DNA from: Mesorhizobium australicum
GTDB lineage: Bacteria > Pseudomonadota > Alphaproteobacteria > Rhizobiales > Rhizobiaceae
Direction: 5' to 3'
Length of the DNA stretch: 64,000 bases
Assembly (NCBI RefSeq): GCF_900177325.1
Contig: NZ_FXBL01000004.1
Location: 434,001-498,000 of the forward strand
The notes under the pieces: model-generated
Database searches by the model: none
What the model saw: only the letters and a program-made list of their open reading frames with translations
Told to the model about the DNA's origin: nothing
Translations under genes and position numbers: made by a program
Shown here: positions 1-30,278 of the stretch, one piece after another
Layout of the letters: each line of letters begins with the position of its first letter
Position numbering within the stretch: the stretch's first letter is position 1

Positions 1-76
1 CCTCAGCGGACCTGATCCAGCGATCGGGGTCGCCCGGACGAGCGGTGAAGCGACCATGGGAGGAAGCGCCGGTCAC
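1..76 (-). CDS. Partial CDS after parA, putative ParA partner
   Basis: A GTG start at 76-74 overlaps the parA stop codon (GTGA), a translational-coupling arrangement. The 25 codons before the window edge read as a soluble protein and include RFTARPGDPDRWIR. From memory, small ribbon-helix-helix proteins that follow parA in rhizobial and sphingomonad elements begin this way, so a centromere-binding ParA partner is the best guess. The DNA-binding part lies outside the window, so the function is inferred from position and the short N-terminus only. Confidence 0.45.
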   Translation of the reverse strand, partial: MTGASSHGRFTARPGDPDRWIRSAE

Positions 77-726
77 GATGTCGCCGTCCCGACGCGGAGC
101 CGTTCGATCTCGGAGGCGAGCGCGGCGATCTCACGCGCGGCGAGGCCGTCGTCATCGAACTCGCAGGCGAGTTGCCCCGATTGCGCCGCCGTGGCGAACA
201 GCACGCGCTGGCCGATCGTCGCGGCGAGAACGGGCGGATCGTGATCGGCGAGCGTCTCGGCGGTGTCGCGCGCGATGATCGTGCGCGCCCCGCATCGGTT
301 GAGCACGAAGCGGGCGGCGAGCTGCGGCCGGTAGATGCGCGCTTCGGCGAGGAGCGCCAGCATCTCGGCCGAAGCCCAGCCGTCTAGCGGCGACGGCTGC
401 ACCGGGATCAGCACGAGGTCGGCGGCGAGCAGCGCCGAGCGCATCAGGCCGGCGACGCGAGGCGGTCCGTCGATGACGACGTGGTCGGCGTCGCGGGCGA
501 GTTCCGGCGCTTCGCGATGCAGCGTGTCGCGCGCCAGCCCGACAACGCCGAACACGCGCGGCGCCCCACTGCGGCTGCGCTGCTGCGACCAGTCGAGCGC
601 CGAGCCCTGCGGGTCGGCATCGACCAGGGTGACGCGCTTGCCGCGCCGTGCCCACTCGCCGGCGAGATGCAGGGCGAGCGTCGTCTTGCCGACGCCGCCC
701 TTTTGGTTAAGGAGCGCGACGATCAT
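73..726 (-). CDS. parA: ParA family partition ATPase
   Basis: 217-residue P-loop ATPase of the ParA/MinD superfamily, expected to position or segregate the element by ATP-dependent binding to nucleoid DNA. The deviant Walker A KGGVGKTT is at residues 9-16, the Walker A' VDADPQ at 35-40 and the Walker B-like VVIDGPP at about 83-89. The protein is short and has no N-terminal helix-turn-helix, as in small plasmid/ICE ParA proteins. Its ATG overlaps the repA stop (ATGA) and its own stop overlaps the GTG of the next gene, so the three are probably one operon. The family assignment is firm; the cargo is inferred from context. Confidence 0.95.
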   Translation of the reverse strand: MIVALLNQKGGVGKTTLALHLAGEWARRGKRVTLVDADPQGSALDWSQQRSRSGAPRVFGVVGLARDTLHREAPELARDADHVVIDGPPRVAGLMRSALLAADLVLIPVQPSPLDGWASAEMLALLAEARIYRPQLAARFVLNRCGARTIIARDTAETLADHDPPVLAATIGQRVLFATAAQSGQLACEFDDDGLAAREIAALASEIERLRVGTATS

Positions 727-1778
727 CGGCCGCGCTCCCGACGGGAAGGACCGGAAAGGGACGGGTTATCCCCGCACTGCGCGTCCAAATAATAAGATTT
801 AGATTCTTCTTTAGAGTCTTTACAGGCGCTGTTTGCCTCGCCGGACCAGAGGCTTAACTGCGATCCGTGCGCCTGATGTACGGATAGGTTTGCGCCCGAT
901 GTACGGATACCGGATGCGCCCGATGTACGGATAGGCGGCTGAGTTGTACACAGCTTTTCCACAGGGCGGATGTGGACAAGTTCATCTCTATCCGCGGTGC
1001 ATTCGATGGCGAGTGCGTAGCCCGGCAGCGGCTGGCGGCGAGCAATGGCGCGAATGTCGATGGCGAAATCGGAATAGCGCGCGAGCGAACCGCTCTTTGC
1101 ATGGAGATGCCTCAGTTCGAAGCGCCAGCCACCGACCTGGCGGCCGGCATGCTTGCGCGCGACGCGATAGAGCCAGCGCTCGATGCCGCCAGTGAGTTCG
1201 AAGTAGTCCGGGTCGATGGCAAGGACGAGGCGGCGGTCGACGATGCCCTGGTAGAGCCATTCGGGCAGGACGAACTCCATGCCCTCGACGCGGCCGCTGC
1301 GCGTCGCCAGTTCTTCCCATTCATTGATCCAGGAGAATTGCTGGCGCCGCCAATGCTCGCCCTGGCGGATGGAGGTGCGGATGACGGTCGATTGCAGGCG
1401 CGTCAGCGCGCCCTTGATAAGGAAATAGCTACGTGCGCCTGTCGTGCGGCCGATGCCGTTGAGGAGTTGATAGGGCGTGAAGCGGAAGAAGCGCGAGGTC
1501 GGCAGGCCACGATCCTGGGCGGCCAGGATCTGGCTCGCGGCCCAGATCAGCACGTCGGCATCCCAGATCGTCGCCATGCCGTGCTCGGCGACGGCGTAGA
1601 CCTGCAGTTCGACGTCGCCGGCCTTGTAGTGGATCGGCGCGGCGCGGCGCGACTTCGACAGCGAGAAGAAGGGGTGCGCCATCAGATCGCGCTGATCGCG
1701 CGGCGGTACGTCGCCGCTCAGCGCCTCGAAGGGATCGAGTTGTGCGCGCTCGCTGCGCTGGTGCGATGATGCCGTCAT
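723..1778 (-). CDS. repA: Replication initiator protein RepA (RPA family)
   Basis: 351-residue protein resembling the plasmid replication initiator RPA family of alphaproteobacteria, with recognisable segments such as AHPFFSLSK near residue 35, RFFRFTPYQLL near 98 and WLYRVARKHAGRQ near 206. It should bind iterons and open an origin. Its last 80 codons are unusual: they contain three copies of a 19-bp DNA repeat conserved across different reading frames, plus DnaA-box-like sites, so the gene appears to carry its own origin. It sits 11 bp downstream of the AlpA-like gene and overlaps parA by 4 bp. On ICEs such initiators may support transient replication after excision; a plasmid is equally possible here. 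Confidence 0.9.
   Translation of the reverse strand: MTASSHQRSERAQLDPFEALSGDVPPRDQRDLMAHPFFSLSKSRRAAPIHYKAGDVELQVYAVAEHGMATIWDADVLIWAASQILAAQDRGLPTSRFFRFTPYQLLNGIGRTTGARSYFLIKGALTRLQSTVIRTSIRQGEHWRRQQFSWINEWEELATRSGRVEGMEFVLPEWLYQGIVDRRLVLAIDPDYFELTGGIERWLYRVARKHAGRQVGGWRFELRHLHAKSGSLARYSDFAIDIRAIARRQPLPGYALAIECTADRDELVHIRPVEKLCTTQPPIRTSGASGIRTSGANLSVHQAHGSQLSLWSGEANSACKDSKEESKSYYLDAQCGDNPSLSGPSRRERGR
788..980. other. Putative replication origin inside the 3' end of repA
   Basis: Three near-identical 19-bp repeats (TGCGCCYGATGTACGGATA) lie at 868-886, 891-909 and 915-933, with starts 23 and 24 bp apart, about one to two helical turns as for iterons. Next to them are DnaA-box-like TTGTACACA (944-952), TTTTCCACA (955-963, matching TTWTNCACA) and a reverse copy at 971-979. 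An AT-rich stretch at about 786-830 could be the unwinding element. The repeats are read in two different frames, which argues for selection on DNA rather than on protein. Confidence 0.6.
868..933. repeat. Three iteron-like 19-bp direct repeats
   Basis: Copies at 868-886, 891-909 and 915-933. The first differs from the other two by one base (T for C at the seventh position). They lie inside the repA coding sequence. Confidence 0.85.
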
Positions 1779-1789
1779 CGGATCACCGT

Positions 1790-2044
1790 TCAGCGAGCGT
1801 CAACGCGGCGGGCCGGATGGACCGTGCCGCGGCCGGGATCGGAGGTCGAGGTCTTGGTGCCGCGATCGGCCCAGGCCTGGAGATCCTCGAGCGCATAGAC
1901 GACGCGGCCGCCGAGTTTCCGATAGGCCGGGCCGGTGCCGTATGTGCGGTGCTTTTCGAGCGTGCGGTCCGACAGACCAAGGAAACGGGCGGCCTCAGGG
2001 GTTCTGAGATAGCGCGGCGGCAAGCCGGCGGCATTGGAAGTCAT
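1790..2044 (-). CDS. AlpA/RdfS-like excisionase, HTH protein
   Basis: 84 residues with the MerR-like winged helix of AlpA and small recombination directionality factors: YLRTPEAARFLGLSDRTLEKH, then RKLGGRVVYALEDLQAWAD. An upstream in-frame ATG at 2095 exists, but the ATG at 2044 with a GGAGA about 9 nt upstream gives the expected N-terminus. By analogy with RdfS of Mesorhizobium symbiosis islands it may bind the attachment site and favour excision. Its position directly downstream of an FseA-type activator, whose known target is rdfS, supports this. A plain transcriptional regulator of repA-parA is the alternative. Confidence 0.7.
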   Translation of the reverse strand: MTSNAAGLPPRYLRTPEAARFLGLSDRTLEKHRTYGTGPAYRKLGGRVVYALEDLQAWADRGTKTSTSDPGRGTVHPARRVDAR

Positions 2045-2125: not shown

Positions 2126-2163
2126 GGGGATGAGGATGTTTGCGGGGCGAAAATCCTCACCCC
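2126..2163. promoter_or_regulatory. Inverted repeat between fseA-like ORFs and the excisionase gene
   Basis: TGAGGAT (2131-2137) pairs with ATCCTCA (2153-2159), extended by GGGG/CCCC with a one-base bulge. It lies 20-57 bp past the DUF2285 stop and 82 bp upstream of the excisionase start, so it could be a terminator, an mRNA leader hairpin or an operator for the excisionase operon. Confidence 0.4.
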
Positions 2164-2182: not shown

Positions 2183-2722
2183 TTATTCCTTGCGGCGATG
2201 ACGCAGGAGCTGACGATAGCCGCCGGCAATCATGGCGCGACCGCCATGGACAAGACCGATGATGGTGGCGCGCAGAGGCGAGGTTTTCCAGGGCTCGGCG
2301 GTGACGCGGCCGGACCCGAACAGGACGATGGCGACATCGCGATAGCTGGCGCCGTTCAGTCGCCCATCCGTCGCCTGCAACATCAGCCGCTGGCGGCGCC
2401 TCTGCTGCGGGGTCAGCCGCCGATCATCGCGAACTGTGCGGCCCTGCAAGGCGCGCAGGAGGCGTTCGATCGCTTCGATCCTGTCGAAGCCGTCGGCATC
2501 AAGCGGCACGAGCGCGGCGAGCGCGGCTCCAGTTGGCGCGCCGGGAAGGCGCAACATGCGAATGGCCTGATTGCCGGCAGCGAGCACAATGTGTTCGCCC
2601 TGATCGTCCGACCGCGCGGCTGGATCGCGAAGCTCGGAGGTAAGATTGCCGGCCGTCGGCAGCACGATGGGCGACTGCGTGAGCAGCACGGCGCTCGTAT
2701 CCGCCTCGACGGACCAGAACAC
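2183..2722 (-). CDS. DUF2285 ORF, C-terminal part of FseA-like activator
   Basis: C-terminal portion of a protein whose N-terminus is encoded in another frame by the ORF at 2499-2939. It carries a DUF2285 domain, recognisable by RLTPQQRRRQRLML, SYRDVAIVLFG, then WKTSPLR and the terminal GGYRQLLRHR. The listed GTG start is only the first possible one; no ribosome-binding site precedes it. The frame reads smoothly into the upstream ORF if one T of a six-T run is skipped. In ICEMlSymR7A the two halves are fused by +1 ribosomal frameshifting to make FseA, the activator of the excisionase gene rdfS. A fused product here would be about 251 residues. Confidence 0.85.
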   Translation of the reverse strand: MFWSVEADTSAVLLTQSPIVLPTAGNLTSELRDPAARSDDQGEHIVLAAGNQAIRMLRLPGAPTGAALAALVPLDADGFDRIEAIERLLRALQGRTVRDDRRLTPQQRRRQRLMLQATDGRLNGASYRDVAIVLFGSGRVTAEPWKTSPLRATIIGLVHGGRAMIAGGYRQLLRHRRKE

Positions 2723-2939
2723 GGGACCCTCGCCAGCACTCAGCGACGGCGGGACGAAAAAACTGCAAACCCCACTTCTTGCGGAGCTCTACGCGGGAGG
2801 AGGGATCCTCGGCGCGGGCATAGTCCTGCTGATAGTCGCGATTGCGCCTGAGCCATTCCCAGGCGAGTTCGGTCGAATTCAATTCGTCCAGATAGTCGTA
2901 TGTCTCCGAGGAGCGCCAGCGGGAGGTATCGGGCGTCAT
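2499..2939 (-). CDS. DUF6499-type ORF, N-terminal part of FseA-like activator
   Basis: Begins at an ATG with a GAGGA ribosome-binding site 8 nt upstream. The first 60 residues, including WRSSETYDYLDELN, ELAWEWLRRNRDYQQDY and the basic KKWGLQFF, match the N-terminal transcriptional-regulator domain that precedes DUF2285 in rhizobial ICEs. After QFF the zero frame becomes an arginine- and serine-rich nonsense-like tail ending at 2499, while the +1 frame continues sensibly (VPPSLSAGEGPVFW) into the DUF2285 ORF. Without frameshifting only a truncated, probably inactive protein is made. This matches the Msi172/Msi171 arrangement. A simple indel or sequencing error is the alternative. Confidence 0.8.
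   Translation of the reverse strand: MTPDTSRWRSSETYDYLDELNSTELAWEWLRRNRDYQQDYARAEDPSSRVELRKKWGLQFFRPAVAECWRGSRVLVRRGGYERRAAHAVAHRAADGRQSYLRASRSSRAVGRSGRTHCARCRQSGHSHVAPSRRANWSRARRARAA
2756..2762 (-). promoter_or_regulatory. Putative +1 programmed ribosomal frameshift site
   Basis: On the minus strand the codons are CAG UUU UUU CGU. Slipping the second Phe codon (2759-2757) by one base re-pairs tRNA-Phe from UUU to UUC and opens the DUF2285 frame. This is the same mechanism reported for FseA of ICEMlSymR7A, and the site sits right after the conserved QFF motif of the N-terminal ORF. Confidence 0.7.
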
Positions 2940-3047: not shown

Positions 3048-3311
3048 CTATAGCGGTTTCCCGTGAAGCAGCTTGCGATAGCCGTGCTCCGTCATCCAGC
3101 GGGCGCGCGCGAGATGGCTGTCGTGCACACGCCGTGCCCGCTCGGGCTCGACCTCTGGATCGATCTCGAAAATCACCGCCACTGCCTCGCGCCAATCCGC
3201 TCCGTCGGCCGAGGCGTCAAGCACCCGCATATAGGCTTTCATGTGCGAGCGATCGTAGTCCGTCAGTTCGGCGCTGTCGGGTGGGGCGTCCAGATACTCG
3301 GTTGGCGCCAT
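3048..3311 (-). CDS. QseM-like antiactivator, single DUF2285 domain
   Basis: 87 residues. The ATG at 3311 (GGGAG about 10 nt upstream) is preferred over an in-frame ATG at 3395 that would run through the operator region. The protein is a stand-alone DUF2285-type domain ending RARWMTEHGYRKLL. In Mesorhizobium loti, QseM is a small DUF2285 protein that binds and inhibits both TraR and FseA. This gene lies 109 bp upstream of the fseA-like pair on the same strand and faces a divergent XRE repressor, as qseM faces qseC. Function is inferred from family plus synteny. Confidence 0.75.
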   Translation of the reverse strand: MAPTEYLDAPPDSAELTDYDRSHMKAYMRVLDASADGADWREAVAVIFEIDPEVEPERARRVHDSHLARARWMTEHGYRKLLHGKPL

Positions 3312-3409: not shown

Positions 3410-3440
3410 CGGAACTATCGTTCCTAGAACGATCGTTCCG
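3410..3440. promoter_or_regulatory. 31-bp operator dyad between qseM-like and qseC-like genes
   Basis: Near-perfect 31-bp dyad centred on 3425, with 13 of 15 base pairs matching. It contains two sub-palindromes, GGAACTATCGTTCC (3411-3424) and GAACGATCGTTC (3427-3438), centred 15 bp apart. It lies 20 bp before the XRE start and about 100 bp before the QseM-like start, the expected place for a Cro/CI-type repressor to control two divergent promoters. Confidence 0.75.
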
Positions 3441-3460: not shown

Positions 3461-3676
3461 ATGGACCTCAAGGAGGTCATGGCGATCAATCTGCGTCGGA
3501 TACGCCATGACAAGGATATGACGCAGGAAGAACTGGCGGACCGGGCTGGGTTGAGCGCGCGGTATATCGGCGCGATCGAGCGCGCGAACAAATCGGCAAG
3601 CGTGACCGTTCTTGGCCGGATTGCCGAGGCCCTTGGGGTAGAAGCAGCCGCATTGATCAAGCGCCCTCGGCAGTGA
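3461..3676 (+). CDS. XRE-family repressor, QseC-like
   Basis: 71-residue single-domain Cro/CI-type helix-turn-helix protein: MTQEELADRAGLSARYIGAIER is the HTH, followed by the helix ending GVEAAALIKRP. The ATG at 3461 has no ribosome-binding site and lies 20 bp past the operator, so the mRNA may be leaderless. An internal ATG at 3479 has a perfect AGGAGG 5 nt upstream. The start at 3461 is kept because the next XRE gene shows the same N-terminal pattern, but the choice is open. It probably represses itself and the divergent QseM-like gene, forming the toggle known from ICEMlSymR7A. Confidence 0.85.
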   Translation: MDLKEVMAINLRRIRHDKDMTQEELADRAGLSARYIGAIERANKSASVTVLGRIAEALGVEAAALIKRPRQ

Positions 3677-3704: not shown

Positions 3705-3757
3705 CGGCCTTGCAGCGATGTAGAGAATACTCCGTGGCAGGATTCTCTACAAGGCCG
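3705..3757. promoter_or_regulatory. Nested inverted repeats upstream of the second XRE gene
   Basis: Inner arms TGTAGAGAAT (3719-3728) and ATTCTCTACA (3742-3751) are a perfect 10-bp pair with a 13-nt spacer. An outer pair, CGGCCTT (3705-3711) and AAGGCCG (3751-3757), adds to the symmetry. It ends 13 bp before the XRE start codon and is probably its operator. Confidence 0.6.
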
Positions 3758-3770
3758 TGTCCTCTCGTGC

Positions 3771-4007
3771 ATGGAGATACGAGAGATACTGGCCCACAAT
3801 CTGAAGACCTATCGCCGTGCGCAGGGTTTGTCGCAAGAGGAACTGGCGCACCGCGCGGGCATCGACCGGACTTATATCAGTTCGCTCGAGCGTTGTGTTT
3901 ATGCGGCTGGCATCGATGTCGTTGACAGCCTGGCCAAGGTGCTCGGCGTCGAGGCGTCCGACCTGTTGAAACGCCCGGAACGCGGGGCGTCTCGGCGCCG
4001 GTCGTGA
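3771..4007 (+). CDS. XRE-family transcriptional regulator
   Basis: 78-residue Cro/CI-type protein with HTH SQEELAHRAGIDRTYISSLER, then a helix ending GVEASDLLKRP and a basic tail. Its N-terminus (MEIREILAHNL) parallels that of the preceding XRE gene (MDLKEVMAINL), so the two are probably paralogues from duplication. No ribosome-binding site precedes the ATG. It is convergent with DUF736 across a strong bidirectional terminator, and the operator-like dyad just upstream suggests autoregulation. Which of the two XRE proteins corresponds to QseC cannot be decided from sequence alone. Confidence 0.88.
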   Translation: MEIREILAHNLKTYRRAQGLSQEELAHRAGIDRTYISSLERCVYAAGIDVVDSLAKVLGVEASDLLKRPERGASRRRS

Positions 4008-4065: not shown

Positions 4066-4392
4066 TCATTCGCCATTGCGGCGGGTCGGGCGGAACCAGA
4101 TGAGGCTGTAGCTCTCGCCGTCTTCGTCCTCGACCAGGTTGGCGTAGATCGGGGCGGTGAAGCTGGGGTCGTCAAGCTTGAAGCCCAGGTACGGACGGCC
4201 CTCGTTGGACTGCTTGCTCCAGGCGGCGCCGATCTCGGCTCGGCCGACGAAGACCCGGTGGCTGGGGGCGTTCTCGCCGCTGGCGCGGGTGTCGGCTGTG
4301 ACGCGGACGTTCTTGGCCTGGACCGAGAGGGTGACGATTTCGCCGGTGAATTCGTTGGTGGCGGTCTTCTTGAACGTGCCGATGGTGGCCAT
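4066..4392 (-). CDS. DUF736 family protein
   Basis: 108 residues; the ATG at 4392 has AAGGAG 8 nt upstream, so the longer frame to 4476 is not used. The family is a small beta-rich protein (here MATIGTFKKT at the start, IWFRPTRRNGE at the end) found almost only on conjugative elements of alpha- and gammaproteobacteria. The biochemical role is unknown. It is preceded by a strongly structured leader (see 4504-4557 and 4691-4809), which suggests control at the RNA level. Confidence 0.9.
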   Translation of the reverse strand: MATIGTFKKTATNEFTGEIVTLSVQAKNVRVTADTRASGENAPSHRVFVGRAEIGAAWSKQSNEGRPYLGFKLDDPSFTAPIYANLVEDEDGESYSLIWFRPTRRNGE

Positions 4393-4503
4393 GGTAGTTC
4401 TCCTTGGTTTCTGGTTCGAGCCCGCACCATGCGGCCTCGATGGCGATCGTCCGGCCGAAGGCGATCGACGGCGCACCCCGCGGGGGCCCGACAGCAGAGG
4501 AGG

Positions 4504-18293: not shown

Positions 18294-19172
18294 CTATGGG
18301 ATGCGCCGACCGCGACGGCCGGCAATGATTGCCAGCATGTTCACCACGGACCACGTTCCTTCGGCGCAGAGGGCGGCCGTTCGAAAGTCGGCAAGACGTT
18401 TGTGCTGTAGCGCGAGGGCCAGCCGCACGGCGGCCTTCGCGTGGGCCCGGGCCTCTTCGTTGCTCGAACCCTTGAGTTCCTCTTCGAAGATAGCCTCGAG
18501 CATGCGCTTGGCGTCGGTGTCGCTGGGTGTCTTGTCATCGATCGGAGCGTGACGGGAAGGGTCATAGACCTCCTGGGCCACCGAGATGAGCACTTCGCGA
18601 CAGAGCAAGCCCACGGCCTGGTATTGCTCCTCGGTGTCGGCGGCGTCGAGCCGCGCGCGCATTTCCTGAAGCTGGCGGTCCACCTTTTGCCAACCGGTAG
18701 GCTCCTCGAAAACTGCCACGCGACGAGCCGACTGCGCGATATAGACAGGTTTGCCAGAAATGAGCCTGCTCGGCACAATTTGCCAGCCATCGGCCGCCAG
18801 CGCGGTATTGTAGACATCAAGGAGCGCTTGCACCTCTTCTCCGTCAGGCCGCACGACTGGATGCAGGGTTTCGCAGAGGAACTGCAGCAGCCTGGCGTCG
18901 GGCGCGTGCAGGAGGTTGAAACGACGATCGTAGAAAACCCAGCCTGAATCCCAGTCGCTGTTTCTCACCGTGTGTTGGTAGATATCGCCTGCCGCGTCCC
19001 TGTAGCGATGATCGAACGACGGCATCTTGGTAAGGTCGTACAAGCGCGCGAGGAACTCATCATCCTGCAGCCGGCCGGCCCAGCTCACCTGGGCCACGGC
19101 AAAGTGATCGATGATCGCGCGCCGCGTGACTTCTGAAATGGCCGTCTCGGATTCTTCCTGAAGGGCGTTCAT
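18294..19172 (-). CDS. AbiJ-NTD3 domain protein, putative abortive infection gene
   Basis: 292 residues. The N-terminal 140 residues fit the AbiJ-NTD3 family: EVTRRAIIDHF, WAGRLQDDEFLARLYDL, then PSFDHRYRDAAGDIYQH and NSDWDSGWVFYD, followed by HPVVRPDGEEV and SGKPVYIAQ. The C-terminal half is helical (GLLCREVLISVAQEV, then AKAAVRLALALQHKR) and may be a HEPN-like effector, but I see no clear R-x4-6-H RNase motif. It probably acts in phage or plasmid defence. It is the last gene of a probable operon with the small ORF and XRE regulator upstream; an 18-bp gap separates it from the small ORF. Confidence 0.72.
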   Translation of the reverse strand: MNALQEESETAISEVTRRAIIDHFAVAQVSWAGRLQDDEFLARLYDLTKMPSFDHRYRDAAGDIYQHTVRNSDWDSGWVFYDRRFNLLHAPDARLLQFLCETLHPVVRPDGEEVQALLDVYNTALAADGWQIVPSRLISGKPVYIAQSARRVAVFEEPTGWQKVDRQLQEMRARLDAADTEEQYQAVGLLCREVLISVAQEVYDPSRHAPIDDKTPSDTDAKRMLEAIFEEELKGSSNEEARAHAKAAVRLALALQHKRLADFRTAALCAEGTWSVVNMLAIIAGRRGRRIP

Positions 19173-21250: not shown

Positions 21251-24200
21251 CTAGCGAAAATCGCGTGTCTTCACCCTGATTGGATCGACCTTCAATGTGG
21301 GATCGACCATGTCGCGCGGCCGGAACCCTTTCGGCAGGCTGCGAGGATCTGCGCCCGGACCGCCATGGTGTGCCTCGTCGCCGCGCCCATGCGGCAGCGG
21401 AAACGGCGTATCGCGGTTGCCGACGCTGGCGAGGTCACCGGACAGGTCGGTGAGCTGGTTGGCGACGAGATGCACGACCTCGCCCTCGCGCTGAATCCTG
21501 CCACGAACCGCAAGCATCGAGGATGAGAGGAGCACGCGGCGGAATTTCTCGAAGACCTTGACCCAGACCACGACATTGGCGGCGCCGGTCTCGTCTTCCA
21601 TGGTGAGGAACATGACGCCCTTGGCCGAACCGGGGCGCTGGCGCACCAGCACCAGACCTGCGGCCTCCAGCCAGCGCCCGTCGCGGGCCTGCATCGCCTC
21701 GCGGCAGGTCACGATGCGGCGCCGGACAAGGTCGGCGCGCAGGAACGACAGCGGATGACTGCGCAGGGTGAGCCCGACATGCCCATAATCCTCGACCACT
21801 TCCCGTCCGGCCGTCATCGCGCGCAGGGGCACGGCCGGTTCGTGAATCTCGGAGACGGTCTGCCGCTCACGTGCCGACGCGGCGGCAAAGAGCGGCAAGG
21901 GTTCGTCTCGCAGCCCCTTGAGGGCCCAGAGCGCCTCGCGACGCGCCAGGCCGAGATCGGTGCGGAAGGCGTCGGCTTCGGCGAGTTGCACGAGCGAGGC
22001 GGCGGGAACGCCTGCGCGATGCCAGAGGTCGTCGATGGAGGCGAAGGGGTCATCCGCCCTTGCGGCGACAATCGCGGCAGCGTCGGCATTGGCGAGGCCC
22101 TTCACCAGGCGGAGACCCAGACGGACGGCGAACCGGCCATCCTCTCCGTCCGGTTCCAGCGTGCAGTCCCAGCGGCTGGCATTGATGCAGACGGGTCGGA
22201 TATCGACACCATGATCGCGAGCATCGCGCACGATCTGGGCCGGCAGATAGAAGCCCATCGGCTGGGCGTTGAGCAGCGCGCAGCAGAAGACGTCGGGATG
22301 GTGGCACTTCATCCAGGATGAGGCGTAGGCGATGAGCGCGAAGCTGGCGGCATGGCTTTCGGGGAAGCCGTAGCTGCCGAAGCCTTCCAACTGCTTGAAC
22401 GTGTTGGCCGCGAAATCCGGCGTATAGCCGTTGGCGATCATGCCGCCGATCAGCTTGTCCTTGAACTTGCTGACGCCGCCGGTGTGCTTGAACGTCGCCA
22501 TGGCACGGCGCAACTGGTCGGCCTCGCCGGCGGAAAAGCCGGCGCAGACCATGGCGACCTGCATGGCCTGCTCCTGGAATAGCGGTACACCCAGCGTCTT
22601 GCCGAGCACGCGCTCCAGTTCGGGCGTCGGGAATTCGACCGGCTCCTTGCCCTCGCGGCGGCGAAGATAGGGATGGACCATGTCGCCCTGGATGGGACCG
22701 GGACGAACGATGGCGACCTCGACGACCAGATCATAGAAGGTGCGGGGCTTGATGCGCGGCAGCATCGACATCTGGGCCCGGCTTTCGATCTGGAAGACGC
22801 CGATCGTGTCGGCCTTGCGGATCATCGCATAGGTCGCCGGGTCCTCGGCCGGGATAGTCGCAAGGTCGAGGGTGACACCCTTGTGCTCGGCCAGGAGGTC
22901 GAAGGAGCGCTTCATGCAGGTGAGCATACCGAGGGCGAGAACGTCGACCTTCATGAATTTGAGGATGTCGATATCGTCCTTGTCCCATTCGATGACCTGG
23001 CGGTCGACCATGCGGGCCGGCTCGATCGGCGCCAGGTCGTCGAGCCTGTCATTGGTCAGAACGAAACCGCCCGGATGCTGCGACAGGTGCCGGGGCGTGC
23101 CCTCCAGTTGCTGCGCCAGTTCCAGCGTCAGCCGCAGCCGGCGATCGGCGACGTTGAGATTGAGCTCTCGGGCGCGCGTCTCGTCGATGCCCTCGCCGTG
23201 ACCCCAGACCTGCGAGGAGAGCAGCTTGGTGACGTCCTCGGGCAGGCCGAGCGCCTTGCCGATGTCGCGGACGGCGCCCTTGGTGTGATAGCGCACGACG
23301 GTCGAGCAGAGCGCGCTGTGGTCGCGGCCATAAGTCTCGTAGACCCACTGCATGACGATCTCGCGCCGCTCGTGCTCGAAATCGACGTCGATGTCGGGCG
23401 GCTCCTTGCGCTCCTGACTGACGAAGCGCTCGAACAGCAGATTGTTGCGCTCGGGATCAATGCTGGTGATGCCCAGCACGTAGCAGACGGCCGAATTGGC
23501 GGCCGAGCCTCTGCCCTGGCACAGGATGTCCCGGCTGCGCGCGAACTGCACGATGGCGTTTACGGTCAGGAAGTAGGGAGCATATTGCAGCGTCTCGATC
23601 AGCCGCAATTCATGTTTGATGAGGGCGATGACCTTGTCCGGGACGCCTTCGGGATAGCGCCGGTCGGCGCCTTCCCAGGTGAGTTTCTCAAGCGCCTGCT
23701 GCGCCGTCAGTCCGGGCATCATCTTCTCTTCCGGATATTGATAGGCCAGTTCGTCGAGCGAGAAGCGGCACTGGCGGGCAATCTCGTGCGTGCGCGCCAG
23801 AGCTTCGGGATAGCGCGAGAACAGCCGGGCCATTTCCTCGGGTGGCTTGAGATAGCGGTCGGCATGGCGCTCGCGCCTGAAGCCCAACTGGTCGATCGTG
23901 ATGTTGTGGCGAATGGCCGTCACCGCATCCTGCAGGATGCGCCGGCCGGGCTCGTGGAACAGAACGTCGTTCGTCACCACCGTCGGCACCCGCATCTGGG
24001 TGGCGAGGTTGGACAATTCGTGGAGGCGAAGCTGATCGTTGGGCCGGCGCCGCAGGGTCAGGGCGAGAAAGGCGCGGTCCTTGAAGGCTTCGCGCAGGCG
24101 CCGGAGTTGCATCGCGCAGGTCTCATCCGCCTGATCGGGGACGAGGACCGCGATGAGACCCTCGGCGTAGGTGGCGACGTCGTCCCACTCGAGGTGGCAC

Positions 24201-24517
24201 TTTGCCTTGCCGCCGCGCTTCTTTCCCAGGGTGAGTAGCCGGCACAGCCGGGAATAGGCGGCGCGATCGGTCGGATAGACCAGCACCGACATGCCATCGA
24301 CCAGATCGAGGCGGCAGCCGACGATGAGCCGGATGCCGGTGTCCTTGGCGGCCTGATGGGCACGCACAATGCCGGCCAGCGAATTGCGGTCGACAACCGC
24401 CAGGGCCTCGATACCGAGCGCGGCGGCCTGGGCGAAAAGCTCGTCGCAACTGCTCGCACCGCGCAGAAACGAGAAGTGGCTGGTGACCTGCAATTCGGCA
24501 TAGCGCGGCCCACTCAT
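21251..24517 (-). CDS. dnaE2: Error-prone DNA polymerase DnaE2 (ImuC)
   Basis: 1088 residues from the ATG at 24517, which overlaps the ImuB stop (ATGA); the 103-codon upstream extension lies within imuB. The N-terminal PHP domain begins [18 protein letters not shown]; the C-family polymerase core has [13 protein letters not shown] with catalytic aspartates and [17 protein letters not shown]; an OB-fold is near the C-terminus. It is the translesion polymerase of the ImuA-ImuB-DnaE2 mutasome responsible for SOS mutagenesis in bacteria lacking UmuDC. It is the last gene of the LexA-controlled operon. Usual length, intact. Confidence 0.96.
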
Positions 24518-26034
24518 GCGAAGACCCCATGCAGAAACCACTTGTGTGAGCCGGTCTCGGGATCCTCGCCGTCGCCGGCGCGGTAGATCCAGAAGCGCTC
24601 CCCGGACGCGTCCTCCACCTGGAAATAGTCGCGAACCGCGATCAGTTCGGCATCGCGCTGCCACCATTCGCCGAACACCCGCTCCGGGCCGTCTGCCCGG
24701 GCGACGCGATGCCGGATGCCGCGCCAACTGAACCAGACCGGCGGATGGTCGGGCAGCAGCGCCATGGTCTCGATGGGTTCGGGATGCGCCAGCAGACGCG
24801 GCGGGCGCGGCCAGTCGCCTGGCCAACTCGTCCCGTCATCGGGCGCGGTCGGCGCAACGCGCTGGATCGAGCGTTCCGGCACGTCGCTCTCGACCGGGGC
24901 AAAGCGATAGAGCCGCTGTTCGCCGATGCGGTTGCTGAGCGTGTCGATGAGATCGGTGATGTCGGGCTCCGGTTCCTCGACCAGCGACGAGATGGTCTGT
25001 TTGGCTCCGAAGGGCTCGGCGAGGGTTGCGGCCAGCGTCATGACCTCGATGCCGAAGCCGGGGTCTACGGTTTCGATCAGGTCGGTGAGGAGCCGGGTCA
25101 GCCGCTTGACGTCGCGCACGGGCACGGCGGTCCCGGCGCGGATGGCTTCGATCCGGTTGTCGACGCGGTGAAAGACGAGGTCGAGCCGGCGGGCGCCGAG
25201 CCCCCTGGCCTCAAGCGCGTCGCAGAGCGCCGTGACGAGCTTGCCCATGTAGCGGGCGATGGTCTCGGCGGCGCTGATCGGTTCGCCGAAAGCGCGGCGG
25301 ACTTCGATGATTTCGGGCGAGCGGACGGGCTCGAACGGCTCGCCACGCCGGCCCAGGGCCTGGTCGAGGCGGCGGCCGAGCTCGGGCCCGAAGCGTAGGG
25401 TCAGAGAGGCGCGCGGCGCCGCTTCGAGGTCGTCCACGCGCTCGAAGCCGAGCGTGAGCAGGCCGGAGACGATCTCGTGGGGAAGCCGCAAGGCGCCAAT
25501 CGGAAGGCCGCGCACGATCGCCGGAGCTTGCCCCGTGGGGGCGATGAAGGTCGGGCGGGCGAGGAAGCGCGCGCAGGCATGGGCGGCGCCCCAGGTGTCC
25601 GCCACTGCGACCCGAGCGTCGATCCCGGAGGCCGCCATGCGCGACACCAGCCCCTCGAGCATCGCCGCTTCCCCGCCATGCAGATGATCGGCGCCCGTGG
25701 TGTCGATGATGAGGCCATCGGGCGGATCTGCGGCGACGATCGGCGCGTAGCGCAGGCACCAGAGCGCCATTCTATCGAGCGCCGCGGCATCGCCCGCCGC
25801 GTCGAGGTCGAAGCTCTGGAGGTTGGGCACCAGAACCTGGGCCTTGCTCGCCGGCATGCCGACGCGCAGGCCGGCTGCGCGCGCCGCCGCATCGGCGGCC
25901 AGCACCAGCCGCCGGTTTCCCTGCCGGCCGAGCATGACGATCGGGGTTTCAGCCGAGGGCGCGGATGCGCCCATCGCGCGCCGCAGGCGATCGGTCGGCC
26001 AGGTCGGAAAATAGAGCGAGACGACCCTTGTCAT
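24514..26034 (-). CDS. imuB: ImuB, Y-family polymerase-like mutasome protein
   Basis: 506 residues from the ATG at 26034 ([19 protein letters not shown]). It has the Y-family polymerase fold but lacks the N-terminal acidic metal ligand ([10 protein letters not shown] where active polymerases have DMDxFF), as ImuB proteins do. It acts as the adaptor linking DnaE2 to the beta clamp. It overlaps imuA by 86 bp and dnaE2 by 4 bp, in one operon. The C-terminal region carries [19 protein letters not shown], typical for ImuB. Confidence 0.95.
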
Positions 26035-28025: not shown

Positions 28026-29963
28026 CTATCGGATCGCTTTGCGAATTCTCTCCGTCAGAACCTGCTCGACGTCGAAATAGCCCTTCCATGGATCCGGCTC
28101 TTGGGCGCGCGCGGCAGCGGCAAAGACGTCGAACGCGTTCGCGCTTTTGAAAGTCGGCAACTCGTCCCAAGCGACTGGCACCGCGCACGATGCGCCCGAG
28201 CGGGCCCGGGTTGACCATGGGCATATCGCTGTGGCGCCCTGACCGTTGCGGAGGTAGTCGAGGAACATGCGGCCCTTTCGCTTCGCCTTGCTCATGTTCG
28301 CGATGAAGCGGGACGGGTCGGTGCGAGCGAGCAGTTCGGCCAAGTCCTGGCAGAAGCTCTTGGCCGCTTCCCAGTCGGCCTCGGGGACGAGTGGGACGAT
28401 CACGTGAACGCCCTTGCCTCCGGACAGGAGTGGCCAGGATTGAAGGCCCAGCGCCTCCAGCACACCCCGTATGTCGAGAGCCGCCTGCTTGACGTCGTCG
28501 AAACCCAGACCCTCGTCCGGGTCGATGTCGAAGACTATCCGGTGCGGCAGGTCCGGCTGCTGGCGGAGGCTACCCCAGACATGGAATTCGAGGACGTTCA
28601 TTTGGACGCCCGCGATGAGGCCCGCCAGGTCATCGACCCACAGAACGCGGCTTTCCTTGCCGGACATTTTCTCCAGCCGGCCGTCATGGATGGCCTTGGG
28701 CATGCCTGGCAGCTTGTGCTTTTGAAAGAAGGTCTTTTGCAGGTCCCCGTCGGTGTCGCGCACTAGGGAGAGAGGCCGGTCTTCGATATGAGGCAGCATC
28801 TTCTCGGCGACAGCAACGTAGTATGCGGCGAGCGTTGCCTTGGTCACCCTGGTGTCCGGATACATGACCTTGTCGGGATGCGTGAGGGTCACGCCGACGG
28901 CGCCTGCGATCTCCTTGCCCATGCCAGGATCGAGATTGGCCGTAGCGGGCATTGCCGGCGCTTTGGCGACCTCCATCACCACCTGGTCGGCTCGCTTGTC
29001 TTCACGCATCCCCTCAAAACTGGGGTGACGCAGGCTGCCGTCGGGAGTCACCTCCGAATATGTCACTTCGGCCACGAGCTCGGGCTTTACCCAGCGGGCG
29101 CGGCGGGCAATGTCGCGCGGCACGGACGCGAAGGCGGGTTTGTCGAGGCGCCTTCTCTCGAGCTGCGCCAGTATTTTATTCCGCATTGCCTCGGTGAACC
29201 CGGTGCCCACGCGGCCCCTGTAGATCAGCTTTCCATTCTCATAAGTGCCGAGGATCAGAGAGGCCATGCCGCCGCCAGTTTCGCTGGGCCGATAGCCCCC
29301 GACCACGAATTCCTGCCGCTTCGTGCATTTGATCTTGAGCCAAGCCGGAGTCCGGTCACCGACGTACCGGCTGTCGGCGCGCTTGGCGATGACTCCCTCG
29401 TGGCCGCCTGCGCACATCGTATCGAAGATCGTTTTGCCATTGTCGGCGATATGGCTGGAGAACTGCAGGACATCGTCCGGATCCCTATCACCCAACAGTT
29501 CAGCGAGCCGTTCCTTGCGCTCGATCAACGGCCGGCTGGACAGATCCAGGCCGTTCAACTCAAGGAGGTCGAAGGCGTAGAACTTGAGTGGCAGGCCGGC
29601 GGCGATGCCGGTCTTCAGCATGGAGAAGTTGGTGCGGCCTTGACTGTCGATGGCGACAATCTCGCCGTCGATGAGGGCCGACCCCTTCGTCAGCGATCGC
29701 AATGTCGGCAGGATCACCTTGAACTGGCGGGTCCAGTCATGGCCGTTTCGAGTGTAAACTACAACATCAGAACCGGAGATTGCGGTTTGTGCCCGATAGC
29801 CATCGAACTTCATTTCGAAGAGCCAGTTTGCGCCCACGGGAAGGTCTTCCGTCAGCGTGCAAAGCTGAAACGGTCGAAAGTTCGGGAGTGCGTAACCGGA
29901 GATAGATTCTGAGTCCCTGCGCCGTGTGCGCTTTTTGCTGAGAGCGGCCTCTATGGCCGGCAT
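28026..29963 (-). CDS. ligD: ATP-dependent DNA ligase LigD (ligase-polymerase form)
   Basis: 645 residues from the ATG at 29963. Domain order: nucleotidyltransferase ligase domain with the adenylated lysine K52 in EMKFDGYRAQ, its OB-fold, then from about residue 355 an archaeo-eukaryotic-primase-type polymerase domain with DIDPDEGLGF (metal ligands) and SGGKGVHVIVPL. The N-terminal 3'-phosphoesterase domain common in LigD is absent. It serves non-homologous end joining with Ku, but no ku gene lies in the window. Convergent with dinB (8-bp gap). A weak EcfG-like promoter (29992-30016) may precede it. Confidence 0.94.
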   Translation of the reverse strand: MPAIEAALSKKRTRRRDSESISGYALPNFRPFQLCTLTEDLPVGANWLFEMKFDGYRAQTAISGSDVVVYTRNGHDWTRQFKVILPTLRSLTKGSALIDGEIVAIDSQGRTNFSMLKTGIAAGLPLKFYAFDLLELNGLDLSSRPLIERKERLAELLGDRDPDDVLQFSSHIADNGKTIFDTMCAGGHEGVIAKRADSRYVGDRTPAWLKIKCTKRQEFVVGGYRPSETGGGMASLILGTYENGKLIYRGRVGTGFTEAMRNKILAQLERRRLDKPAFASVPRDIARRARWVKPELVAEVTYSEVTPDGSLRHPSFEGMREDKRADQVVMEVAKAPAMPATANLDPGMGKEIAGAVGVTLTHPDKVMYPDTRVTKATLAAYYVAVAEKMLPHIEDRPLSLVRDTDGDLQKTFFQKHKLPGMPKAIHDGRLEKMSGKESRVLWVDDLAGLIAGVQMNVLEFHVWGSLRQQPDLPHRIVFDIDPDEGLGFDDVKQAALDIRGVLEALGLQSWPLLSGGKGVHVIVPLVPEADWEAAKSFCQDLAELLARTDPSRFIANMSKAKRKGRMFLDYLRNGQGATAICPWSTRARSGASCAVPVAWDELPTFKSANAFDVFAAAARAQEPDPWKGYFDVEQVLTERIRKAIR

Positions 29964-30095
29964 AGGGAACTCGGATACATGGCCAGATTCAATACTCTGC
30001 CCTGGGACTTTGTTCCACAAGATGCGTCCAAGGATTGAACCCAAAGAGTCCGACGACGTTGTTGGGTACCGGAAAGCAATCTTGGAGGAACGAAG

Positions 30096-30278
30096 ATGGC
30101 TACTACTCAAACAACCCGTGGGCGCAGCCAGGACCGCGCGAAGGTCGCCGGAGGGCAGGATCACGAAGTGAAATACGAGGCGGGCAAGACCGGGACCTCG
30201 AAGGCCGAGGTCAAGTCGGCTGTGAAATCGGTCGGCAACAGTCGCAAGAAGGTCGAAGACAAGCTCGGCAAGAAGTGA
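30096..30278 (+). CDS. DUF3606 domain protein
   Basis: 60 residues, ATG with GGAGGA 8 nt upstream. Small basic DUF3606 protein: RGRSQDRAKVAGGQDHEV, then TGTSKAEVKSAVKSVGNSRKKVEDKL. The family is frequent in rhizobia, often next to stress and end-joining genes; role unknown. It is divergent from ligD and directly upstream of the exonuclease III gene. Confidence 0.8.
   Translation: MATTQTTRGRSQDRAKVAGGQDHEVKYEAGKTGTSKAEVKSAVKSVGNSRKKVEDKLGKK

Follow-up and report, generated by a model that had tools for sequence, protein, structure and literature searches.

The stretch of DNA analysed here, referred to below as the window, comprises 64,000 nucleotides (nt) of the Mesorhizobium australicum contig NZ_FXBL01000004.1, and near its beginning two minus-strand open reading frames (ORFs) together encode what is very probably FseA, the excision activator of an integrative and conjugative element (ICE) of the ICEMlSymR7A type, made by a +1 ribosomal frameshift. 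The features of this locus, in window coordinates, are the following, SD standing for Shine-Dalgarno.

2757..2939, minus strand: N-terminal half of the probable fseA, with DUF6499, up to the second UUU (from the sequence and PF20109)
2756..2774, minus strand: putative +1 frameshift site TGG GGT TTG CAG TTT TTT C, with SD-like UGGGGU, slip codons UUU-UUU and the C skipped
2183..2755, minus strand: C-terminal half of the probable fseA, middle domain and DUF2285, in the +1 frame (from PF10074 and an AlphaFold2 model)
2228..2278, minus strand: codons of a DUF2285 helix, residues 221-237 of the joined protein, of which Ala224, Ile227 and Gly228 track the box
2499..2756, minus strand: 0-frame extension beyond the slip site, a basic tail translated if the ribosome does not shift
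2131..2159, minus strand: putative FseA-box-like inverted repeat TGAGGAT-N15-ATCCTCA, between fseA and an rdfS-like gene

The coordinates, the frames and the T6C run at 2762-2756, all given in a preliminary description made from the letters alone, check out: the N-terminal ORF runs from an ATG at 2939, with GAGGA ahead of it, to 2499, and the C-terminal ORF, in the +1 frame relative to the first, is listed from a GTG at 2722 to 2183. The former contains DUF6499 (PF20109, E 1.1e-17, 64.5 bits against a Pfam cut-off of 23.8) and the motif AWEWLRRN, equivalent to the AWEFLRRN-like motif of the FseA family, and the latter contains DUF2285 (PF10074, E 2.2e-37, 128.3 bits against a cut-off of 26.4), C-terminal to DUF6499. 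Because the frame of the C-terminal ORF is open back to just before the TTTTTTC run, a +1 shift there unites both ORFs, and the two domain frames can be joined by a +1 shift only; when TTTC is read as one step, the product has the 251 residues previously proposed, with QFF-VPP at the junction. This joined protein (P0001) is predicted to form a single fold (predicted local distance difference test score of 94, AlphaFold2), which matches RovC of Yersinia (PDB 6xz5), whose single solved chain has both domains. RovC activates a type VI secretion system (PMC10359603). As for the 0 frame past the slip site, it is open for 86 codons in all six members of the window's clade and its tail is very basic, an openness that is borderline when compared with synonymous shuffles.

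The generality of the split was assessed in two gene sets. Set 1 took every listed match from 398 genomes over the phylum (43 with a DUF6499 match), 199 genomes of the family (58 with a match) and five named loci, some loci being cut by contig ends, and left 148 distinct DUF6499 genes after duplicate removal: 110 with a +1 split, 31 fused, 2 in a -1 relation and 5 in which the C-terminal half was not found. Set 2 was picked by similarity to the window's C-terminal half among the matches listed (54 + 59 = 113 loci, one of them without a DUF6499 match); 21 of the 112 matches repeated a gene of set 1 or another match of set 2, and the 91 genes that were new comprised 89 with a +1 split, one fused and one with an in-frame stop. 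Both sets together thus give a +1 split in 199/239 distinct DUF6499 genes, with 32 fused and 8 other or incomplete, which is far from homologues always fused and devoid of the slippery run. On a tree of 136 proteins the split and fused states need 8 changes, and in the window's branch 92/95 rows are split (a quick tree with several long branches). In loci L008 and L143 the two halves stand in a -1 relation, perhaps decayed or read differently. FseA is a published family in which about 61% of members are frameshifted, and its conserved +1 site is already in print (PMC10359603).

The codons at the site carry a further signal. In set 1 the consensus over 104 sites is TGG GGG TTG CGA TTT C (encoding W G L R F ahead of the shift), with UUU as the slip codon in 101/104 and C, T or G as the following base in 89, 14 and 1; in set 2 the slip codon is UUU in 89/89, followed by C in 87 and by T in 2. 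UUU thus occupies 190/193 aligned sites, as a control only 68 of 219 upstream Phe codons of the set-1 genes (31%), and CGA, which accounts for 77/800 upstream Arg codons, stands at the site in 63/66 (set 1) and 63/75 (set 2), all these genes being related and hence not independent draws. Across deep divergence these codons persist although they run counter to the usual preference, and fused relatives, where alignable, carry TTC or different codons and are one base shorter. The codon statistics, repeated in the second gene set, confirm that the family retains the split. The RBS-like (ribosome-binding-site-like) UGGGGG at the site has been remarked before (PMC10359603), and the open papers on the FseA of R7A speak of a "+1 programmed ribosomal frameshift" or similar (PMC10359603, PMC5009743, PMC11963761).

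The window has the family's +1 site after its WGL codons, TGG GGT TTG CAG TTT TTT C. The preliminary description had placed the slip on UUU-UUU-C, and the run is indeed there, but the canonical slip codon by homology is the first UUU, because FFVPPSLSA aligns with FAARPSLSA of the relatives; it follows that the window clade reads UUU-UUU-Y. A slip on the first or on the second UUU is possible, with an identical peptide in both cases. The window sequence and five relatives (Mesorhizobium sp. 61-13, G457, two Devosia and G494) form one branch with support 100, all of whose members have the doubled TTT TTT, followed by C or T; the relatives L157 and L159 show U7 in place of U6C, and L141 has a doubled TTT TTT outside this branch. 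A weak terminator-like stem at 2767-2789, just ahead of the T run, lies within chance expectation.

Homopolymer runs being common error spots, it might be asked whether the run really has five T, or whether the gene is broken; we consider a sequencing error or pseudogene the least probable account of all, since TTT TTT recurs in the five relatives (three then with C, two with T), the genome's two further copies likewise have a +1 split around the same codons, and both halves show third-position bias. Only slightly less far-fetched is that RNA polymerase, and not the ribosome, slips on T6 to produce a fused mRNA, for which the T6-T7 runs of the window clade would be suitable; however, 176/193 homologous sites are TTT followed by C, a run too short for transcriptional slippage, and the choice of the upstream CGA and GGG codons points to the ribosome.

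A third alternative concerns the products: two separate proteins, the DUF6499 ORF being read to its end without a shift and the DUF2285 half being initiated independently at GTG 2722 and acting in trans. Here the preliminary description, which gave the N-terminal ORF a good RBS, went too far in denying one to the C-terminal ORF, as a possible SD sequence, GAGGG, lies 4 nt before GTG 2722, and in R7A DUF6499 and DUF2285 interact as a pair (PMC10359603). Yet only 17/195 homologues have an SD-like start at most 40 codons from the slip (a stretch further in gives 8/195), despite the near-universal UUU, and fused relatives exist; the confident joint model suits a single chain, though it is also compatible with two. 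We therefore hold two separate proteins to be very improbable, if a little less so than the two preceding alternatives.

Behind fseA, the candidate box TGAGGAT-N15-ATCCTCA begins 26 nt past the first base of the fseA stop codon. The FseA of R7A binds inverted hexamers near the -35 element of rdfS, which are separated by a spacer of 16 (in relatives 15 or 16) (PMC10359603). The window's pattern occurs at 1 place in the window against 0 in 100 shuffles, and genome-wide at 3 places, with 0 occurrences of the reversed pattern. Over 106 split loci, exact hexamer repeats that start no more than 45 nt past fseA number 6, 12, 15 and 10 at spacers 15-18, where simple shuffling predicts 1.1-1.8; spacers 14 and 19 are also above expectation (6 and 7, with 1.6 predicted), and the excess becomes less distinct once one mismatch is permitted. 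The letters of the arms vary between elements while their complementarity is kept. Elsewhere in the genome, repeats of the form TGAGGA-N15..18-TCCTCA lie at C4:1472836-1472865 (L281) and 1940836-1940863 (L282).

The neighbouring genes and features are as follows.

1790..2041, minus strand: RdfS/AlpA-like HTH_17 gene, candidate recombination directionality factor (Pfam)
723..1778, minus strand: repA, RPA family (Pfam)
73..726, minus strand: parA-like ATPase gene (Pfam)
3048..3311, minus strand: QseM-like lone DUF2285 gene of 87 amino acids, isoelectric point 5.4, candidate antiactivator, directly upstream of fseA
3412..3439, no strand assigned: two near-identical 13-nt repeats, GAACTATCGTTCC and GAACGATCGTTCC, candidate QseC-like operators
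3461..3676, plus strand: XRE-type helix-turn-helix (HTH) gene, divergent from the qseM-like gene, in the QseC-like position (Pfam)
3771..4007, plus strand: second XRE-type HTH gene (Pfam)
4066..4392, minus strand: DUF736 gene with ATG at 4392, matched as 4066-4476 (Pfam)

The placement of the fseA pair upstream of an AlpA/RdfS-like gene, repA and parA, already pointed out before, is borne out by the HTH_17, RPA and ParA-like matches. Beyond parA follow genes for an S26 peptidase, SLT and a DUF3363 relaxase, so that the order rdfS-traF-msi107-rlxS of ICEMlSymR7A (PMC11963761) is matched here with repA and parA inserted. The repeats GAACTATCGTTCC and GAACGATCGTTCC lie between the qseM-like gene and the first XRE-type gene, where they would fit the expectation for an autoregulated QseC-like switch. 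A separate inverted repeat, TGTAGAGAATACT/AGGATTCTCTACA at 3719-3751, precedes the second XRE gene and is possibly another operator. DUF736 genes are reported to be present on all compared Mesorhizobium elements of the ICEMlSymR7A type (PMC8627217). On the same contig (C4), the segment at 399-418 kb encodes TrbE, a TrbB-like ATPase, CagX/TrbG, TrbI and TraG, and genes of the trb type IV secretion system, TraG and the relaxase all lie within 40 kb of fseA; together with a tyrosine integrase on C4, this set makes it very likely that the window lies inside a large ICE.

The split in 199/239 genes, the UUU in 190/193 sites, the two domains and their joint modelled fold lead us to read the ORF pair, with little doubt, as the fseA of such an element, expressed by +1 frameshifting as first proposed, and the neighbourhood and the box before the rdfS-like gene agree with this; the window copy is thereby placed in a likely full ICE circuit. 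In this circuit most ribosomes would hold the 0 frame, their product being just the DUF6499 domain and its tail, whereas a minority would pause at the SD-like UGGGGU with tRNA-Phe on the first or second UUU and move +1, yielding the 251-residue FseA at a presumably low rate. FseA dimers would then bind the GAGGAT half-sites at 2159-2131 and activate the rdfS-like gene together with the transfer genes downstream of it, and the QseM-like protein encoded just upstream may block FseA via its DUF6499 domain.

Several observations weigh against this account. The window site deviates from the consensus by CAG for CGA, GGT for GGG and U for C following the canonical UUU; the RNA downstream of the slip has no unusual structure (z +1.13); and, with the possible SD sequence at GTG 2722, some C-terminal half alone may be made. 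The nearer hexamer of the candidate box lies 91-96 nt from the rdfS-like ATG, compared with 62-67 nt in R7A-type promoters (PMC10359603), and when 350 nt downstream of each of 137 genes are considered, the excess of hexamer repeats over shuffles extends to many spacers besides 15-16. The tyrosine integrase at 558 kb on C4, a candidate for the element, is 122 kb away from fseA; the stretches scanned for tRNA genes contained none; and the sole LuxI-family match in the genome, at C4:1871267, is 1.4 Mb from the window's fseA, with none near (LuxR/TraR not having been searched).

Among known systems, FseA of ICEMlSymR7A in Mesorhizobium japonicum (Msi172-Msi171) likewise combines DUF6499 and DUF2285 via a +1 frameshift with WGL and an RBS-like stretch. 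The likeness extends to an rdfS target with inverted hexamers at spacer 15 or 16 and, as candidates, to the lone QseM-like gene and its adjacent HTH regulator with the repeats between them. QseM itself (PDB 7uqt) is an antiactivator without DUF6499 that matches the DUF2285 profile (E 4.9e-4), and the gene at 3048-3311 is correspondingly a lone, acidic DUF2285. Unlike in R7A, the window's fseA has the qseM-like gene as its immediate upstream neighbour and the rdfS-like gene as its immediate downstream one, no LuxI gene is nearby, UUU-UUU-C places a U after the canonical UUU, and the box has the half-site GAGGAT at a greater distance from the rdfS start. In prfB, the gene of release factor 2, an SD-like G-rich stretch also stands just before a P-site +1 slip; the window site differs in having no in-frame stop codon, and its spacing is one codon longer.

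Given that the box letters vary, we compared them with the protein. A strict search accepted a box in 85/195 split genes, of which 79, with boxes of common types lying within 45 nt, entered the analysis. Residues 224 and 227 of P0001 (A221 and I224 in the column-scan numbering), both on the modelled DUF2285 helix 221-237, tell most about the box type among 244 alignment columns; the first half-site base goes best with residue 227, the second with 224 and the third with 228. By leave-one-out on single columns, 224 ranks first (0.76), before 219 (0.70) and 227 (0.67, tied with 149), against 0.41 for the median column. GAGGA goes with Ala224 in 9/9 cases, Ala being found in 0 of the other 70; TGCGA goes with Met/Leu227 in 17/17 versus 0/62; and GGCGA with Lys227 in 14/15. 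A tree built without the helix requires 3 changes for GAGGA and 3 for Ala, 5 for TGCGA and 5 for Met/Leu, and 3 for GGCGA and 2 for Lys, and the independent pairs agree in 3/3, 3/3 and 2/3 with none opposed, numbers too few for significance. A table drawn from 34 set-1 genes predicted 39/45 set-2 boxes correctly and none wrongly, with 6 unseen pairs, a result that is inflated by relatives and for which both positions were chosen on all data.

We lean towards a two-residue code in this helix, in which residues 224 and 227 would choose the box sequence, 224 setting the second and 227 the first base of the half-site x1x2x3GA; its proposed terms, put forward with the same measured preference, are Ala224 for GAGGA, Asp+Ile for GGGGA, Glu+Ile for GTCGA, His+Lys for GGCGA and Met/Leu227 for TGCGA. 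Under such a code co-resident elements would each obey mainly their own frameshifted activator. The association is correlative, and it is to be set against the 110/195 split genes without a strict box, the 12/21 Ala proteins without an accepted box (11 with none, one doubtful) and the finding that single-base hexamer changes kept much activity in R7A (PMC10359603). Among the matches listed we found no published account of this code, and the terms "specificity" and "covar" are absent from PMC10359603. If real, the association would make it possible to pair each element with its excision activator on the basis of sequence, and would account for the coexistence of several related elements in one cell without cross-triggering.

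Besides the window's copy, this genome has two others, also +1 split.

G000:C4:164162-164909 (L002/L154): fseA copy with its own box and a DUF3363 relaxase gene within 7 kb
C4:1880451-1881186 (L003/L155): fseA copy with an imperfect box and a DUF3363 relaxase gene within 7 kb

The three copies with their three differing boxes would exemplify such private switches, although the third box, a repeat with one mismatch outside the strict list, speaks against the code. At the L002 site, TTG TTT TAT CCC CGT, the usual UUU-C is missing at the canonical codon, and UUU-U or CCC-C could slip; the L003 site reads AGC TTT CGC, and the genome's single LuxI-family gene lies 9 kb from that copy. Further along the window, 18294-19172 encodes an AbiJ_NTD3 protein, possibly an abortive-infection defence gene on the element, and a DNA polymerase III alpha-type gene at 21251-24826 and a LigD-type ligase/primase gene at 28026-30164 are possible cargo.
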